Of a stretch of 64,000 nucleotides of DNA, positions 3,080 through 63,836 are shown piece by piece; position 1 is the stretch's first letter, and each line of letters opens with the position of its first letter. The stretch comes from Snuella sedimenti. Lineage in GTDB: Bacteria; Bacteroidota; Bacteroidia; Flavobacteriales; Flavobacteriaceae. Both the position numbers and the translations under genes were made by a program. The stretch lies in contig NZ_JAELVQ010000002.1 in the NCBI RefSeq assembly GCF_016428595.1, positions 62,001-126,000 of the forward strand, written 5' to 3'. The notes beneath the pieces were generated by a model. That model did not search any database. It was not told where the DNA came from and saw only the letters and a program-made list of their open reading frames with translations.

Positions 3080-3227
3080 TTCAGAATCCAGAATTCAGAA
3101 TTCTGAATTAGTTAAAATGTCCCACCGATGTGGTCGCGGGAAAAACGGAAAAATGCAGTTCAAGGTCGAAATGTGTTTTGGCCTTGAATTTTTAATAACA
3201 AATAGTAATAATTAATAAATAGTAAAT
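3080..3227 (+). promoter_or_regulatory. structured spacer / candidate attenuator before rplC
   Basis: This is a long gap inside an otherwise tight operon. It holds an 18-base perfect palindrome (AATTCAGAATTCTGAATT, 3092-3109), a GC-rich dyad CCCACCG/CGCGGG near 3121-3140, and a 9-bp hairpin TTCAAGGTC/GGCCTTGAA (3159-3167 with 3180-3188). The hairpin is followed directly by TTTTTAATAA, the layout of an intrinsic terminator. Inference: a conditional terminator or ribosomal-protein leader controlling rplC and the genes behind it. E. coli regulates this operon by L4, but through a leader in front of rpsJ. Confidence 0.55.
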
Positions 3228-7485: not shown

Positions 7486-7577
7486 TATTATGAAATGAGC
7501 TATTAATAATTTCGAGTTAATGAAACTATAAATGGCGAATTACATCTGACCAAAGTAAAAAATAAGATTTACAGATG
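7486..7577 (+). promoter_or_regulatory. start-codon-pairing leader motif, copy A (rpmC)
   Basis: Three blocks shared with other leaders are seen. Block 1 is ATGAAATGAGC (7490-7500), block 2 is TGGCGAATTACATCTGACC (7533-7551) and block 3 is ACAGATG (7571-7577), whose ATG is the rpmC start. CATCTG (7543-7548) is exactly complementary to CAGATG (7572-7577) with 23 bases between. GCTA in block 1 can also pair with TGGC in block 2 with one G-U. Inference: an mRNA hairpin that covers the start codon. The same blocks precede a susD-like gene (46.7 kb) and queE (62.6 kb), and a variant precedes a sulfatase gene. Confidence 0.6.
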
Positions 7578-7766
7578 AAACAATCAGAAATTAAAGAATT
7601 ATCTACCGCTGAGTTACAGGAAAAACTTGGTGAGACAAAAAAGAGCTATTCAGACTTAAAATTAGCTCATGCAATATCTCCTTTAGAAAATCCAATTCAG
7701 CTACGTACAATTAGACGTACTGTAGCAAGAATTGCGACGGAATTAACTAAAAGAGAATTACAATAA
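7575..7766 (+). CDS. rpmC: 50S ribosomal protein L29
   Basis: The 63-residue, helix-rich protein has the L29 pattern: [17 protein letters not shown] at the start and [19 protein letters not shown] near the end. L29 lies by the tunnel exit next to L23. The ATG at 7575 is part of the ACAGATG block of the shared leader motif, so it may be shut by pairing with CATCTG 29 bases upstream. rpsQ follows 11 bases after the stop. Confidence 0.95.
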
Positions 7767-15045: not shown

Positions 15046-15651
15046 ATGGCAAGATATACTGGTCCTAAAACTAAAATAGCTCGTAAGTTTGGAGAAGCTA
15101 TTTTTGGAGAAGATAAATCTTTTGAAAAAAGAAATTATCCTCCAGGTCAACACGGTAACGCTAAGCGTCGTGGAAAAAAATCTGAATATGCAATCCAATT
15201 AATGGAAAAGCAAAAAGCAAAATACACTTACGGTGTATTAGAGCGTCAATTCAGAAACATGTTTAAGCGTGCAAGAGCTGCACAAGGTATTACCGGTGAG
15301 GTGTTATTACAACTATGTGAGTCTAGATTGGATAATGTAGTTTACAGAATGGGAATTGCCCCATCAAGAAGTGCTGCTAGACAATTAGTATCTCATAGAC
15401 ACATAATTGTTAATGGTGAATTGGTAAACATACCATCATATTCTTTAAAAGCTGGAGATGTAGTAGCTGTAAGAGAAAAATCTAAATCTTTAGATGTAAT
15501 TACGCAATCTTTGGCTAATTCAAATCATGTTTACGAATGGATTACATGGAACAATGATACCATGCAAGGAACCTATGTTGCTGTTCCCGCTAGAATTCAA
15601 ATTCCAGAAAACATAAATGAACAATTCATAGTCGAATTATATTCTAAATAA
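15046..15651 (+). CDS. rpsD: 30S ribosomal protein S4
   Basis: S4 (201 residues) starts 30S assembly. Seen are the N-terminal [17 protein letters not shown], the [10 protein letters not shown] motif, and the S4 RNA-binding domain with [28 protein letters not shown] (about residues 92-120). No zinc-binding Cys cluster is present in the N-domain. The gene starts a new transcript after a terminator and a TAAATTTG promoter. Confidence 0.97.
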
Positions 15652-28464: not shown

Positions 28465-29787
28465 TTATTCAGTACTTTTCCAATTAGGATGTTTTTTTAA
28501 CTCATCCATTAAAAACCGTTTGGTTTCTAGCTCCTTTTCGGTTAGCGAATCTAGATGTATGGGGTGTTTTTCCAGTGGATCTTTATTTAAGTTGAAAAAC
28601 GTTCCATCCTGGTATAATTTATAATCAAGTGTCCTAACAAATTGATTTTTATATTGATTTATGCGTTTCCCCCATTGGGGGTCGTAGTGTACAAATGCGG
28701 TGTTACGTGCTTTATAGTCATTACCTTTTAATAAAGGATAGAAGCTTCTCCCATCAGAAGAAATCTTTTTGTCAACAATGTCGGCTAAGGTTGGAAAAAA
28801 ATCACTGAATTCTATTAGTTCACTGTAAACAGAGCCTTTCTTTATTTCCTTAGGCCATGAAACGATTAGCGGTACATGCGTGCCAGCGTCAATTGTATTA
28901 CCTTTTGCTCCTTGAACAGTACTATTTACCGTCTTAGAGAATATTGTGGGATGTGTACCATTATCTCCGGTAAAAATAATAATGGTATTGTCATCAATAT
29001 TAAGAGTTTTGAGTTTAGTTACTATTTTGCCGATAATTTTATCGGTATAAGCTACCATATCCTTAAAATAGGCTGTGTCATTTTTCTTTCGTAGCTCAAT
29101 TTGTCCCCAGTCTTTAGAGTCGGGTGTAGGCACAAAAGGATCATGGACTAAGACCATAGGGTAGTAGATAAAAAAAGGTTTGTCTTTCTTGCGCTCCATA
29201 AAATCCATCAGATAATTGGCAAATATATCCGGTCCATAGTCATTGGTTTTACCTTGTATGGTTTTGCCATTTTGTTCAATTAAGGGCGCTGCATATCTTC
29301 CTCCTTCATTTCCTGATTTTGTTAATTGCCATAAACAGTATTCGTCAAAACCAAATGTATTAGGTTTTGTATTATCATTCCAATCAGGAATGTTGTCTTT
29401 ATGATAGGCACCATTTAGCTGCCACTTTCCGGTAATACAGGTGGCGTATCCTGCATCTTGCATTAAGTTTCCAAAAGTGTATTGGTTAGTATTTAAATGA
29501 CCAAAATAATCGTAATTTCTATAGTTGTACAGGCCTGTCATTATTTTAACCCTTGAAGGTGTACAGAGCGGTTGGGAAATGCACTTTGAGAAACGAATAC
29601 CATTAGAAGCTAGATGGTCTAAATTGGGCGTATTGTAAGCTATAGAACCATTAGAGCTCAAACATTCATATCCCATGTCATCAGCCATAATGAGAATGAT
29701 ATTTGGTTTCCTTTTACTTTTTTTGTCAGCGTTACATGAGAATACGAAAACTGAAAGAATTATTAAAATTGATAAGTAAGGTTTCAT
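28465..29787 (-). CDS. sulfatase lipoprotein (arylsulfatase type, S1 family)
   Basis: A 440-residue sulfatase. The N-terminus is a lipoprotein signal (Cys18 in VFVFSCNADKK), so it is probably outer-membrane or periplasmic. Active-site features: the metal pair Asp36-Asp37 in ADDMGY, the formylglycine signature CTPSR (75-79, Cys type), GKW (120-122), VHDPF with His215, and TGDNGTH (273-279). It removes sulfate esters, most likely from polysaccharide fragments; the substrate cannot be told. Its leader carries a TACCTTTG promoter and a start-codon-pairing motif (copy D). The NagX-like gene lies upstream on the same strand. The activating formylglycine enzyme is not in the window. Confidence 0.92.
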   Translation of the reverse strand: MKPYLSILIILSVFVFSCNADKKSKRKPNIILIMADDMGYECLSSNGSIAYNTPNLDHLASNGIRFSKCISQPLCTPSRVKIMTGLYNYRNYDYFGHLNTNQYTFGNLMQDAGYATCITGKWQLNGAYHKDNIPDWNDNTKPNTFGFDEYCLWQLTKSGNEGGRYAAPLIEQNGKTIQGKTNDYGPDIFANYLMDFMERKKDKPFFIYYPMVLVHDPFVPTPDSKDWGQIELRKKNDTAYFKDMVAYTDKIIGKIVTKLKTLNIDDNTIIIFTGDNGTHPTIFSKTVNSTVQGAKGNTIDAGTHVPLIVSWPKEIKKGSVYSELIEFSDFFPTLADIVDKKISSDGRSFYPLLKGNDYKARNTAFVHYDPQWGKRINQYKNQFVRTLDYKLYQDGTFFNLNKDPLEKHPIHLDSLTEKELETKRFLMDELKKHPNWKSTE

Positions 29788-29821
29788 CTGTTAATATTTA
29801 TTGTTTTTTAGTGGTCAGATG
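29785..29821 (-). promoter_or_regulatory. start-codon-pairing leader motif, copy D (sulfatase)
   Basis: On the minus strand the leader reads CATCGCATCTGACC and, 25 bases later, ACAGATGAAA, in which ATG is the sulfatase start. CATCTG (complement of 29816-29821) pairs fully with CAGATG (complement of 29785-29790). The CATCTGACC and ACAGATG blocks are identical to copies A and C. A looser block 1 (GAAATGCCTATTA) occurs just after the promoter near 29912-29923. Confidence 0.55.
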
Positions 29822-46677: not shown

Positions 46678-46774
46678 TATTATGAAATGAGCCATAACAA
46701 ATCTTGATACCCACCGAGATGATTATTGGCGAATTACATCTGATCTATGAAAAACAATAAAATTTAAACAGATG
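46678..46774 (+). promoter_or_regulatory. start-codon-pairing leader motif, copy B (susD-like)
   Basis: Between the susC-like and susD-like genes lie ATGAAATGAGCC (46682-46693), TGGCGAATTACATCTGATC (46727-46745) and ACAGATG (46768-46774), whose ATG starts the susD-like gene. The first and second blocks are nearly identical to those before rpmC (7.5 kb). CATCTG (46737-46742) is complementary to CAGATG (46769-46774), 26 bases apart. GCCA and TGGC can also pair. AGATG in the middle offers an alternative partner for CATCT. Confidence 0.6.
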
Positions 46775-48517
46775 AAAAAAATAATGTTATTAATGTTTTC
46801 CTTGATAGTCCTTTCGTCTTGTCAGGATGTCTTAGAGGAAGAATTTCAGAACCCGCAGCAATACGTGCCTAACCCAGATCAACTGGCTTCTGGGATGTTT
46901 ACAAACGCTCTCCTTCAATATAAATTTTATATTAAAGATTACGGTGAATATTGGTGGCAATTAAGCGGTAACGGTATGCCTAGTTATGCACAAATATCTT
47001 GCCGTTATATTACACCTAGATATAGTTGGTTTATCGATTATGATGACGTAACAAACGGAAATGGTTTTAGCCAAAGTGGATTTAATTGGTTTAATGACTT
47101 TTACTTAAGAATGCGTAATTGGGGATTGATCCAGGACGTAATTAATGGACTTAGCGGTCAAGAGTATGATGATAGTGTTATCTATTTTAAAATGTTGTCA
47201 ATAATGAAGGATTGGGCAGCTTTGAGGAATGTAGACCTGTTTAATTCCATTCCATATTTAAATGCTTTTAAAGGATCTCAAGGTGAATTCTTTACAGAGT
47301 ACGATGATCCAGAAGCTATTTATAAGGCAGTTTTGGATGATTTAAAAGCCATTGCAGACGAATTACCAGGGATTTATGCAAAAATGTCACCAGAAGGGAT
47401 AGCTACTTTGCAAACTCAAGATATTGCTTTGCAAGGGAATGTCGATAAATGGGTTCAGTATGCAAATGCTTTAAGACTTCGGTTTGCAGTTAAATTGGCA
47501 AGTGTAGATGCACAGTTTGCGTCAAGCCATATTAGTGATGCAATTAATAATTTGCCAACAGAAGATTTAGCTTTTGACCTGCCTCATATTGATGCTGCAG
47601 GCGCATTACCTGGTGGAGGTACATGGCAACGTGGATTATACGAAAGGCCTTATGTGACTTTTATTCCTAATATAATTATGAATAGAATGAACTTTCATGA
47701 GTTAGAATATGAGGAAGCTATAGACGATCCTAGATTACCTGTTATTGCATTACCTACAAAGTATAATGATTATAGAGGTGTGTCCTTAGATGCCGATGGT
47801 CAGAATCAAGGTTATGTCGATGGCGATAGATATTATCCGTGGGCAGATAACTTGGAATCTTCATCTGAAAATAATGCCAGATCTATGTATAGTCATGTTA
47901 CCCTTACGCATAATAATGTACCAGCAGATATGTTTACGCTTGCAGAGATAGACTTGTTATTAGCGGAAGTGGCTGCAAAAGGATTAGCGAATACAGGTAA
48001 GACAGCTGGGGGGCACATTGAGGATGCTGTAATGCATTCTACCGATTATTGGTATATGTTAAACGGTTTAGGGCAGTATAGACAGGACTATACAACAGAG
48101 CCTTGGGCAAGTCTAATTCGTCCTTCTAAACCTAGCCAAGCCATTATAAGCTCTTATGCTGAAAAAGTTAAGAATGCTTTTGATGCAGTTAGTAGTGCTG
48201 ATGACCAAATGGAGATTATTATGCAACAAAAGTACATTCATATGAATTTATTGCGACCCATAGAATTATGGAGTGAATTAAGAAGGACAAGACATCCAAA
48301 ATTAGAGCCTATGACATTTCAAGGTAAGGTTATGAAGCCACAGCCAGAACGCTTAATGTATCCGTCTTCTGAATTACAAAACAACTCAGAGGCTTTCTTA
48401 AAAGTAATTGATCAGAATAATTGGACATCACCAATCTTTTGGAGAACAGATGCAAGCTCTTATTATAGAGATGATTATGTGACGTTTAAAACAGGGATGT
48501 TACCTGACTTTAATTAA
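46772..48517 (+). CDS. SusD/RagB-family outer-membrane lipoprotein
   Basis: 581 residues with a lipoprotein signal (Cys17 in LIVLSSCQDV). The helical, Trp- and Tyr-rich sequence, with KDWAALRNVDLFNSIPYLNA, KWVQYANALRLRFAVKLA and the late LLRPIELWSELRRTRHPKL, is typical of SusD-like glycan-binding lipoproteins (SusD-like 2 group). It caps the SusC-like receptor. Its start codon is inside the shared leader motif, so its translation may be set apart from that of SusC. A strong terminator follows. Confidence 0.92.
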   Translation: MKKIMLLMFSLIVLSSCQDVLEEEFQNPQQYVPNPDQLASGMFTNALLQYKFYIKDYGEYWWQLSGNGMPSYAQISCRYITPRYSWFIDYDDVTNGNGFSQSGFNWFNDFYLRMRNWGLIQDVINGLSGQEYDDSVIYFKMLSIMKDWAALRNVDLFNSIPYLNAFKGSQGEFFTEYDDPEAIYKAVLDDLKAIADELPGIYAKMSPEGIATLQTQDIALQGNVDKWVQYANALRLRFAVKLASVDAQFASSHISDAINNLPTEDLAFDLPHIDAAGALPGGGTWQRGLYERPYVTFIPNIIMNRMNFHELEYEEAIDDPRLPVIALPTKYNDYRGVSLDADGQNQGYVDGDRYYPWADNLESSSENNARSMYSHVTLTHNNVPADMFTLAEIDLLLAEVAAKGLANTGKTAGGHIEDAVMHSTDYWYMLNGLGQYRQDYTTEPWASLIRPSKPSQAIISSYAEKVKNAFDAVSSADDQMEIIMQQKYIHMNLLRPIELWSELRRTRHPKLEPMTFQGKVMKPQPERLMYPSSELQNNSEAFLKVIDQNNWTSPIFWRTDASSYYRDDYVTFKTGMLPDFN

Positions 48518-62533: not shown

Positions 62534-62540
62534 CAAACTA

Positions 62541-62624
62541 ATAAATAAGCCATAGAAAAGACGATATCTTACCAAATTTATTATTGGCGTGTTATATCTG
62601 ACCAGATTAAAGAGTAAACAGATG
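62541..62624 (+). promoter_or_regulatory. start-codon-pairing leader motif, copy C (queE)
   Basis: ATAAATAAGCC (62541-62551), TGGCGTGTTATATCTGACC (62585-62603) and ACAGATG (62618-62624) fill the whole leader. TATCTG (62595-62600) pairs with CAGATG (62619-62624), a terminal U-G pair included, across 18 bases. GCCA/TGGC also pair. GATAT upstream (62562-62566) can compete for ATATC. No preQ1 riboswitch consensus was recognised. Confidence 0.6.
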
Positions 62625-63251
62625 AATAAGGAAATACAGTTACTAGTAGATAAAGGCGAAATGTTGCCTTTAATGGAGGAGTTTTATACCATTCAAGGAG
62701 AGGGGTATCACAAAGGAACTGCAGCTTATTTTATTCGTATAGGAGGTTGTGATGTGGGATGTCATTGGTGCGATGTTAAAGAAAGTTGGAATGCAGATAT
62801 ACATCCGCCAACAGAGACGGTTAAGATTGTTGCCCAAGCTAAAAAATATAGTGATACAGTAGTGGTAACAGGAGGCGAGCCCTTAACTTGGGACATGACA
62901 GCCTTAACAGCACAATTAAAGGCAGAAGGATTGCAAGTGCATATCGAAACATCTGGAGCTTATAAACTTACCGGCATTTGGGATTGGATTTGTTTGTCTC
63001 CTAAAAAGATGAAATTACCAACACAAGAAGTTTATGAAAAGGCTAATGAACTCAAAATGATTATTTATAATAGAGATGATTTTCGGTTTGCAGAAGAACA
63101 AGCAGCTAAAGTAAATAAAGATTGCATATTATATATGCAACCAGAATGGAGTAAGCGTGACAAGGTGATTCCCGAAATTGTAGATTATGTGATGGCACAC
63201 CCAAAATGGAAAGTGTCTTTACAAACGCATAAATATTTAAATATACCCTAA
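62622..63251 (+). CDS. queE: 7-carboxy-7-deazaguanine synthase
   Basis: A radical-SAM enzyme of 209 residues from ATG 62622. The cluster motif is Cys43-x3-Cys47-x2-Cys50 (CDVGCHWCD), the usual CxxxCxxC. The N-terminal PLMEEFYTIQGEGYHKGTAAYFIR and GGEPLTWD support QueE, which converts 6-carboxytetrahydropterin to CDG on the way to queuosine. A GTG at 62589 is upstream inside the leader motif and is rejected. No other queuosine gene is in the window. It ends at a bidirectional terminator. Confidence 0.95.
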   Translation: MNKEIQLLVDKGEMLPLMEEFYTIQGEGYHKGTAAYFIRIGGCDVGCHWCDVKESWNADIHPPTETVKIVAQAKKYSDTVVVTGGEPLTWDMTALTAQLKAEGLQVHIETSGAYKLTGIWDWICLSPKKMKLPTQEVYEKANELKMIIYNRDDFRFAEEQAAKVNKDCILYMQPEWSKRDKVIPEIVDYVMAHPKWKVSLQTHKYLNIP

Positions 63252-63291
63252 ACATAAAAAAAGTGCCTAATAAGGCACTTTTTTTATGTTT
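63250..63291. terminator. bidirectional terminator between queE and the DUF2911 gene
   Basis: A perfect 19-bp dyad (63250-63268 with 63273-63291) around a four-base loop AATA. It has A- and T-runs on both flanks, so it can end the transcripts of both convergent genes. It overlaps the last bases of queE. Confidence 0.92.
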
Positions 63292-63305
63292 ATAATAGCA
63301 TCATG

Positions 63306-63836
63306 CTATTTCGTGAAAGCAACGGCAACTCTTGTCGTACCCCATCCTAAATGTAAAGCATCATTAGTAAAAGCAATGGAAAAAGCCTCAAGGGATTCGC
63401 TTGCAGTTGTAACAGGTGCTGGAACCCTAATAGCATCATTTGCTTCTTTATAAGAATAAGCACCCCAAACGTTAATATCCTTGCTCAAAATAATCGTCCA
63501 TTCTTTTTCTCCAGGAATGGTGAAAAGCGAATACTCTCCGGCACTTACAGTTTTTCCTCCAATTTTTACGTCTTCGTATAAAGTAATGTTGGCAGCTTCA
63601 TTAGCGCCAGTACGCCAAACTTTACCATTTGGAGCAAGCGAACCTAATGAGCGTCCTTTAAGTTGAGGTCTACTATAGATAACTTTTGCAATTGCAGGAG
63701 CATTTCGGGATGTTCTATATATAGTTGCATCCATAGGACTTTTATCGAGTTTACTAAACTCTTGAGCCCCAGCATTGGTTGTTAATAATAATACAATAGC
63801 AAAAGCTATACTTGAAATAAAATTTGATGTCTTCAT
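63306..63836 (-). CDS. DUF2911-family secreted protein
   Basis: 176 residues from the ATG at 63836 (MKTSNFISSIAFAIVLLL), with a signal peptide ending NAGAQ. The mature part has the DUF2911 pattern: RSLGSLAPNGKVWRTGANEA, FSAGEYSLFTIPG-like TVSAGEYSLFTIPGEKEWTIIL and INVWGAYSY. The function is unknown; such proteins are common in Bacteroidota. A TTG at 63866 would add ten residues and is rejected. It is convergent with queE over a shared terminator. Confidence 0.88.
   Translation of the reverse strand: MKTSNFISSIAFAIVLLLTTNAGAQEFSKLDKSPMDATIYRTSRNAPAIAKVIYSRPQLKGRSLGSLAPNGKVWRTGANEAANITLYEDVKIGGKTVSAGEYSLFTIPGEKEWTIILSKDINVWGAYSYKEANDAIRVPAPVTTASESLEAFSIAFTNDALHLGWGTTRVAVAFTK

Follow-up and report, generated by a model that had tools for sequence, protein, structure and literature searches.

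The leaders of four unrelated genes in a 64,000 nucleotide stretch of the Snuella sedimenti genome (the whole of which we call the window) are members of a dispersed Bacteroidota repeat family, and not four leaders that converged on the same form. The reading we favor, with a probability of roughly 0.6, is that each is a copy of a short non-autonomous mobile element that inserts on the sense strand, 3′ of ATGA, and moves as a single strand recognized by its structure. The identity of this cassette and its siting are secure; the mechanism of its movement is much less so.

The rpmC copy (bp 7490–7578, forward strand) has its left target ATGA at 7490–7493 and an inserted unit of 85 nt at 7494–7578, which after the ATGA runs AATGAGCTA...TGGCGAATT-A-CATCTGACC...ACAGATGA and finishes at 7578. 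Its hairpin (P1) pairs 7494–7502 with 7533–7541, the block TTaCATCTGACC occupies 7540–7551, and the right end ACAGATGA (7571–7578) supplies the ATG at which rpmC (ribosomal protein L29; 7575–7766, forward; Pfam PF00831, E 2.2e-19) initiates. The second forward-strand copy (46682–46775; left target ATGA 46682–46685, inserted unit of 90 nt at 46686–46775) has P1 at 46686–46694/46727–46735, CATCTGATC at 46737–46745 and ACAGATGA at 46768–46775, and leads into a gene for a SusD/RagB-like lipoprotein (46772–48517, forward; PF12771/PF12741). The queE copy (62540–62625, forward) is old: its left end has decayed and the left ATG is destroyed (AATA), and TATCTGACC (62595–62603) and the right end ACAGATGA (62618–62625) precede a queE-like radical SAM gene (62622–63251, forward; PF04055, which is consistent with queE). 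The sulfatase copy lies on the reverse strand (29926–29784) and belongs to a longer subfamily, with TTGA on its left (29926–29923), an inserted unit of 139 nt (29922–29784), CATCTGACC at 29821–29813 and ACAGATGA at 29791–29784, before a sulfatase gene (28465–29787, reverse; PF00884).

A preliminary description of these leaders had placed the shared blocks and the start-codon pairing correctly in all four, and had rightly noted that the genes have no function in common; Pfam confirms their identities (L29, SusD-like, radical SAM, sulfatase). For the sulfatase leader it gave the last two blocks, which are present, and overlooked the left half of the copy. A profile built from 44 copies in relatives recovered exactly these four copies from the window, with nhmmer E-values between 2.4e-14 and 1.6e-05, and the reversed window gave no match with E < 6. 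The complete architecture thus greatly exceeds chance expectation, whereas short 9-mers of the motif alone have a frequency little or no higher than chance. The rpmC and susD-like copies fold into the hairpin plus a CATCTG/CAGATG helix with z = -3.3 and -4.0, respectively; the queE and sulfatase copies show no folding advantage over shuffled sequence.

In the whole genome (a draft assembly like the others compared here; 4.37 Mb in 57 contigs) the pattern ATCTGAYC-N5..30-ACAGATGA finds 34 copies against none in the reversed control. One 94 nt unit is present at 100% identity on two contigs and at 97–99% at three more places, among them the window's susD-like gene, whose young copy is 99% identical to it; the earlier statement that the leaders are not a simple duplicated segment was thus wrong. 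Of 299 sampled genomes of the same bacterial family, 64 carry copies, with zero in the reversed control of every genome, and one relative (G198, 3.1 Mb) holds 58; since the collection used the exact right-end pattern, copies with diverged right ends are under-counted in these figures. A collection-wide scan gave at least 119 stretches, mostly from Bacteroidota of many orders (Algoriphagus, Cyclobacterium, Chitinophaga, Saprospiraceae, Bacteroidales, Vicingaceae, and Flavobacteriaceae); the few matches outside the phylum, for example in Shewanella, Citrobacter, and Paenibacillus, do not have the architecture and are probably fortuitous. Viral or plasmid carriage was considered and rejected, as the full architecture is missing from all 75 matches in viral contigs and plasmids gave no match. 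No Rfam 15 family matches the four window copies at E ≤ 10, nor the copies from other genomes at E ≤ 5, so that the cassette corresponds to no known Rfam family, and we found no description of it in the open-licence literature. Some host genes (dut, bshA, carA, and queE) recur across genomes; set against a few hundred copies in all, these recurrences are compatible with coincidence and were not taken as evidence of function.

The consensus of the 44 copies is ATGA followed by a unit of the form AAY-hairpin P1-TT-n-CATCTGACC-about 20 A/T-rich nucleotides-ACAGATGA, and in the alignment (A1) ATGA borders both sides (columns 1–5 and 98–105). Every copy lies directly 3′ of an ATGA and carries its own terminal ATGA, apart from the decayed left end at queE and the TTGA at the sulfatase gene. 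Since P1 has two registers, RNAalifold on this alignment gave only the pairing of the internal guide-like segment with the right end, and P1 was therefore assessed by a custom re-pairing test. At P1 positions 7–12, 213 of 264 cells are paired, against 133 ± 6 when the strands are re-paired among copies (maximum 155 in 10,000 trials). GA lies opposite GA in 16 of 18 P1 cases, which forms a tandem G-A motif whose flanks covary, and G-U pairs are rare in this hairpin. The internal segment and right end of family 1 combine as CATCTG/CAGATG in 226 copies and as CATGTG/CACATG in seven, with two mismatched combinations; together with the CATACGT/ACGTATG and CACACGT/ACGTGTG variants of a second family (below), this confirms that the pairing first noticed at the start codons covaries. 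Two conditions that the preliminary description had set for its own refutation, a lack of covariation and a hit to an Rfam family, were checked and came out in its favor. The pairing always involves the terminal bases of the inserted unit, and its role may therefore lie in insertion and not in regulation. An A is required after the right-end ATG, as the pattern ACAGATG[CGT] has no match in 20 element-bearing genomes. The two bases after the right-end ATGA are AA in 239 of 255 copies, whereas ATGAAA accounts for 8 of the 31 ATGA starts within the window and for 194 of 441 elsewhere.

The inserted units are about 85–145 nt long, with the pooled scan giving lengths of up to about 245 nt. Autonomous long copies were looked for and discarded as a candidate, the inspected units being short and without an ORF and the longer ones holding a second repeat. 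In a Chitinophaga copy the hairpin loop has shrunk to a few bases. The left ATG opens short ORFs (MK*, or 17–26 codons) whose frame and sequence vary between subfamilies; this disposes of a conserved leader peptide and indicates that conservation is at the level of the nucleic acid.

The right-end ATG is normally the start codon of the gene that follows. When gene starts are judged by ORFs and not by annotation, 230 of 255 copies lie at a start, are chained to one, or lie at most 60 nt 5′ of one: in 186 the right-end ATG begins an ORF of at least 60 codons, 36 lead into another element, and eight are within 60 nt of a start, leaving 25 others. Random ATGA sites open such an ORF in 20% of cases. 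Preservation of right ends by start codons during decay is not the sole cause of this siting, since among 52 young copies (those at least 95% identical to another copy in their genome) 49 are at starts (35), chained to them (13), or just 5′ of them (one), with three elsewhere. Start-codon targeting by the cassette is thus shown. An ordinary MITE or REP-type repeat that enters 3′ of any ATGA, and whose siting comes purely from selection, for example if start codons are the only places where the cassette is beneficial or harmless, could draw on the fact that ATGAAA is itself a common gene start and that intragenic insertions would be lost, and several of these genomes do contain REP/RAYT systems. 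However, only about 35–40% of noncoding ATGAAA sites are starts (8 of 23 in the window and 194 of 500 in other loci), far from the proportion among the young copies, and most of the non-start copies still lie in the sense orientation, 5′ of a gene on the same strand, so we regard this explanation as unlikely. In form, the cassette is like the MITEs of classical DDE transposons in being small, non-autonomous, and multi-copy, but its ends (AAY... and ...ACAGATGA) are not terminal inverted repeats and its insertion site is fixed as ATGA. It also resembles REP/RAYT systems, in which short structured repeats reach many copies and REPs are moved in trans, but the GTAG/CGTC tag that defines REPs at the palindrome foot (PMC3733652, PMC6006769) is absent from the 44-copy consensus, and the cassette is 85–145 nt long with a fixed right end that becomes a start codon. 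A Bacteroidetes RAYT subclass, 2.6, with "atypical secondary structures" has been described (PMC6006769).

Evidence of mobility comes from a small set of four filled sites in G198, which were set against the corresponding regions of two genomes of its genus, G300 and G299. Two of these sites (L135 and L130) are filled in G198 and empty in G300 and/or G299, with flanks that align across the empty junction, and the other two are consistent with insertion. Tandem arrays in G198 contain differing units as well as identical ones, so that at least part of these arrays arose from repeated insertion at the element's own right end. The dispersed near-identical copies, the empty sites, and the nested and tandem insertions support the suggestion in the preliminary description of a mobile leader cassette. 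Its other suggestion, a global translational control element, gains no such support, as the hosts share no function and the cassette serves hundreds of unrelated genes; its interpretation is thus partly supported as a whole. A non-mobile cis-regulatory RNA retained at many genes for translational control would fit the start-codon helix that is possible in each copy, and the decayed queE copy does retain several pairs through G-U or A-U changes. Against it stand near-identical copies at unrelated loci, tandem arrays, and empty sites, as well as the lack of a shared gene function or an Rfam family. We therefore consider it very improbable; as the primary nature of the cassette it is largely refuted by the empty sites, and a regulatory side effect is possible. 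Bacteroidetes initiate without Shine-Dalgarno signals on unstructured A/T-rich leaders, and in Prevotella structure over the initiation region lowered expression (PMC3155529). Bacteroidetes genes would thus tolerate a cassette that closes with an A/T-rich stretch and ATG, and the CATCTG/CAGATG helix could reduce translation.

A second family follows the same logic with other letters: ATGA, then AACGAGCATTAAG...TTGCATACGTTCTC...AAATTTAAACGTATGA. The window's genome has at least 41 full-length copies, none of them in the window among the matches listed. All 30 copies that were read have ATGA as their left flank; nine of them combine CATACGT with ACGTATG and 16 combine CACACGT with ACGTGTG, the latter type supplying GTG starts. 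The terminal ATGA can be assigned to the unit because this GTG-ended subfamily keeps ATGA on its left. It was also considered whether the guide-like segment selects the site by pairing with the left target. This fits family 1 (TTnCAT against ATGnAA) but not the GTG-ended members of family 2, in which the segment is CAC and the targets are still ATGA, which argues that pairing alone does not select the target. Nested and tandem insertions are always at ATGA. Either family can lie within the end of the other, and as many as three elements are nested ahead of a single gene. At four family 2 loci (L371, L376, L381, and L382) the original ATG has been left upstream and the apparent start, for example of a bshA-like gene, is the element-supplied GTG. 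Elsewhere in the window's genome a third dispersed repeat, GAATTTCTTGAAA..ACTATCCCC...CCGAAATTCTGTATTTAGATTCCCG...AATTCTTTTTGATTAAA, lies inside or beside cassette copies at L015, L059, L157, and L161. REP-like palindromes sit at a near-identical position in cassettes of unrelated genomes (L176, L183, L271, L282, L315, and L302), between P1 and CATCTGACC or within CATCTGACC, as if this junction were a target for another repeat system.

The closest mechanistic parallel is with IS200/IS605 elements, in which the left end is flanked by a target tetranucleotide and the right end finishes in its equivalent, both being read by base pairing with guides near hairpins (PMC6006769). Like them, the cassette lies 3′ of a fixed tetranucleotide with an equivalent at its right end, and has a hairpin and a guide-like segment that pairs with the right-end tetranucleotide. 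Unlike them, it has one hairpin rather than two with a guide 5′ to the foot of each, its guide-like segment is 3′ of the hairpin, it is sited at start codons, and no Y1 gene was found to be linked to it or associated with it. The single hairpin and the guide on its other side are why we do not file it among these elements, although it may well work like one. In the mechanism that we favor, the unit would move in single-stranded form and be recognized by its structure, in the manner of the IS200/IS605 "peel and paste" reaction; the element would be marked by its hairpin, the cut at the right end would be placed after ATGA by the internal segment, and the reaction would be carried out by a host or mobile enzyme that is not encoded in any copy seen. 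Insertion is directly 3′ of ATGA, preferably ATGAAA and in practice at start codons. Since the last four bases of the element are ATGA (or GTGA) with an A/T-rich stretch before them, the recipient gene retains a start codon and a translation start of the Bacteroidota type. The bias toward the sense strand and toward starts would reflect targeting of single-stranded DNA at the starts of transcribed genes, along with selection against intragenic insertions; we infer such transcription-coupled targeting from the siting of the copies.

A search for the enzyme gave no transposase gene that recurs beside the copies. Y1 transposase genes are present in 23 of 40 element-bearing and 19 of 40 element-free genomes, and are absent from five of ten element-bearing genomes. 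The four genomes with recent copies all have a Y1 gene (degraded in G299), against one of six with only old copies, and no Y1 subtype is common to those four. A Y1/HUH transposase was thus set aside as a linked mover, there being neither a linked gene nor a genome-level association. The RAYT genes of G000 (C45) and G198 adjoin palindromes of their own that differ from the cassette. In the window's genome a gene for a RAYT-like Y1 protein (L043, 1456–2085) is part of a type II CRISPR locus, with cas9 on one side and cas1 on the other, and a chain of one family 1 and one family 2 cassette (3122–3212) precedes the next, cas2-like gene.

The sense and start bias could instead point to mRNA as the target: the unit would enter a message at AUGA like a reverse-splicing intron and be copied back into DNA. 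Start codons would be the only harmless AUGA in most transcripts, which would account directly for the sense bias and for siting at transcribed 5′ ends; the rpmC and susD-like copies are foldable as RNA (see above), and the pairing of internal segment and junction recalls the guide logic of introns. We doubt this explanation nonetheless, as 85–145 nt is far below the core size of group I or II introns and no Rfam intron covariance model matches the cassette, G-U pairs are rare in the hairpin, and G094, whose copies are 97–99% alike and which was thus recently active, has no RVT_1 gene. The last point also led us to reject a reverse transcriptase as the mover.

It is possible, and we suggest it tentatively, that the cassettes form a phylum-wide mobile class that targets the translation start itself, in which a structured cassette recognizes the starts of transcribed genes, enters behind ATGA, and supplies the start codon and initiation region, and the kind of mover is new to transposons. 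The start codon as a safe harbor for a mobile element would explain hundreds of odd Bacteroidota leaders, and would offer a natural route by which unrelated genes gain the same leader. Annotated starts could be shifted by the cassette, and some genes now begin with an element-supplied GTG. Because the compact guide-like segment covaries with its pairing partner at the right end, it could also attract interest as the basis of programmable insertion.

Two other structured features were noted in the window. An S4-Flavobacteria leader (RF03141; 14985–15023, forward strand; 44.9 bits, E 7.8e-06) lies upstream of an ORF at 15046; the cassette at rpmC is similar to such ribosomal-protein leaders in being a structured leader close to a ribosomal protein start, but those serve one gene family and are detected by Rfam, whereas the cassette serves unrelated genes and has no Rfam match. 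Finally, a strong A/T-flanked palindrome, AAAAAAAGTGCC..GGCACTTTTTTT, lies between convergent genes at 63214–63311 and is probably a bidirectional terminator.
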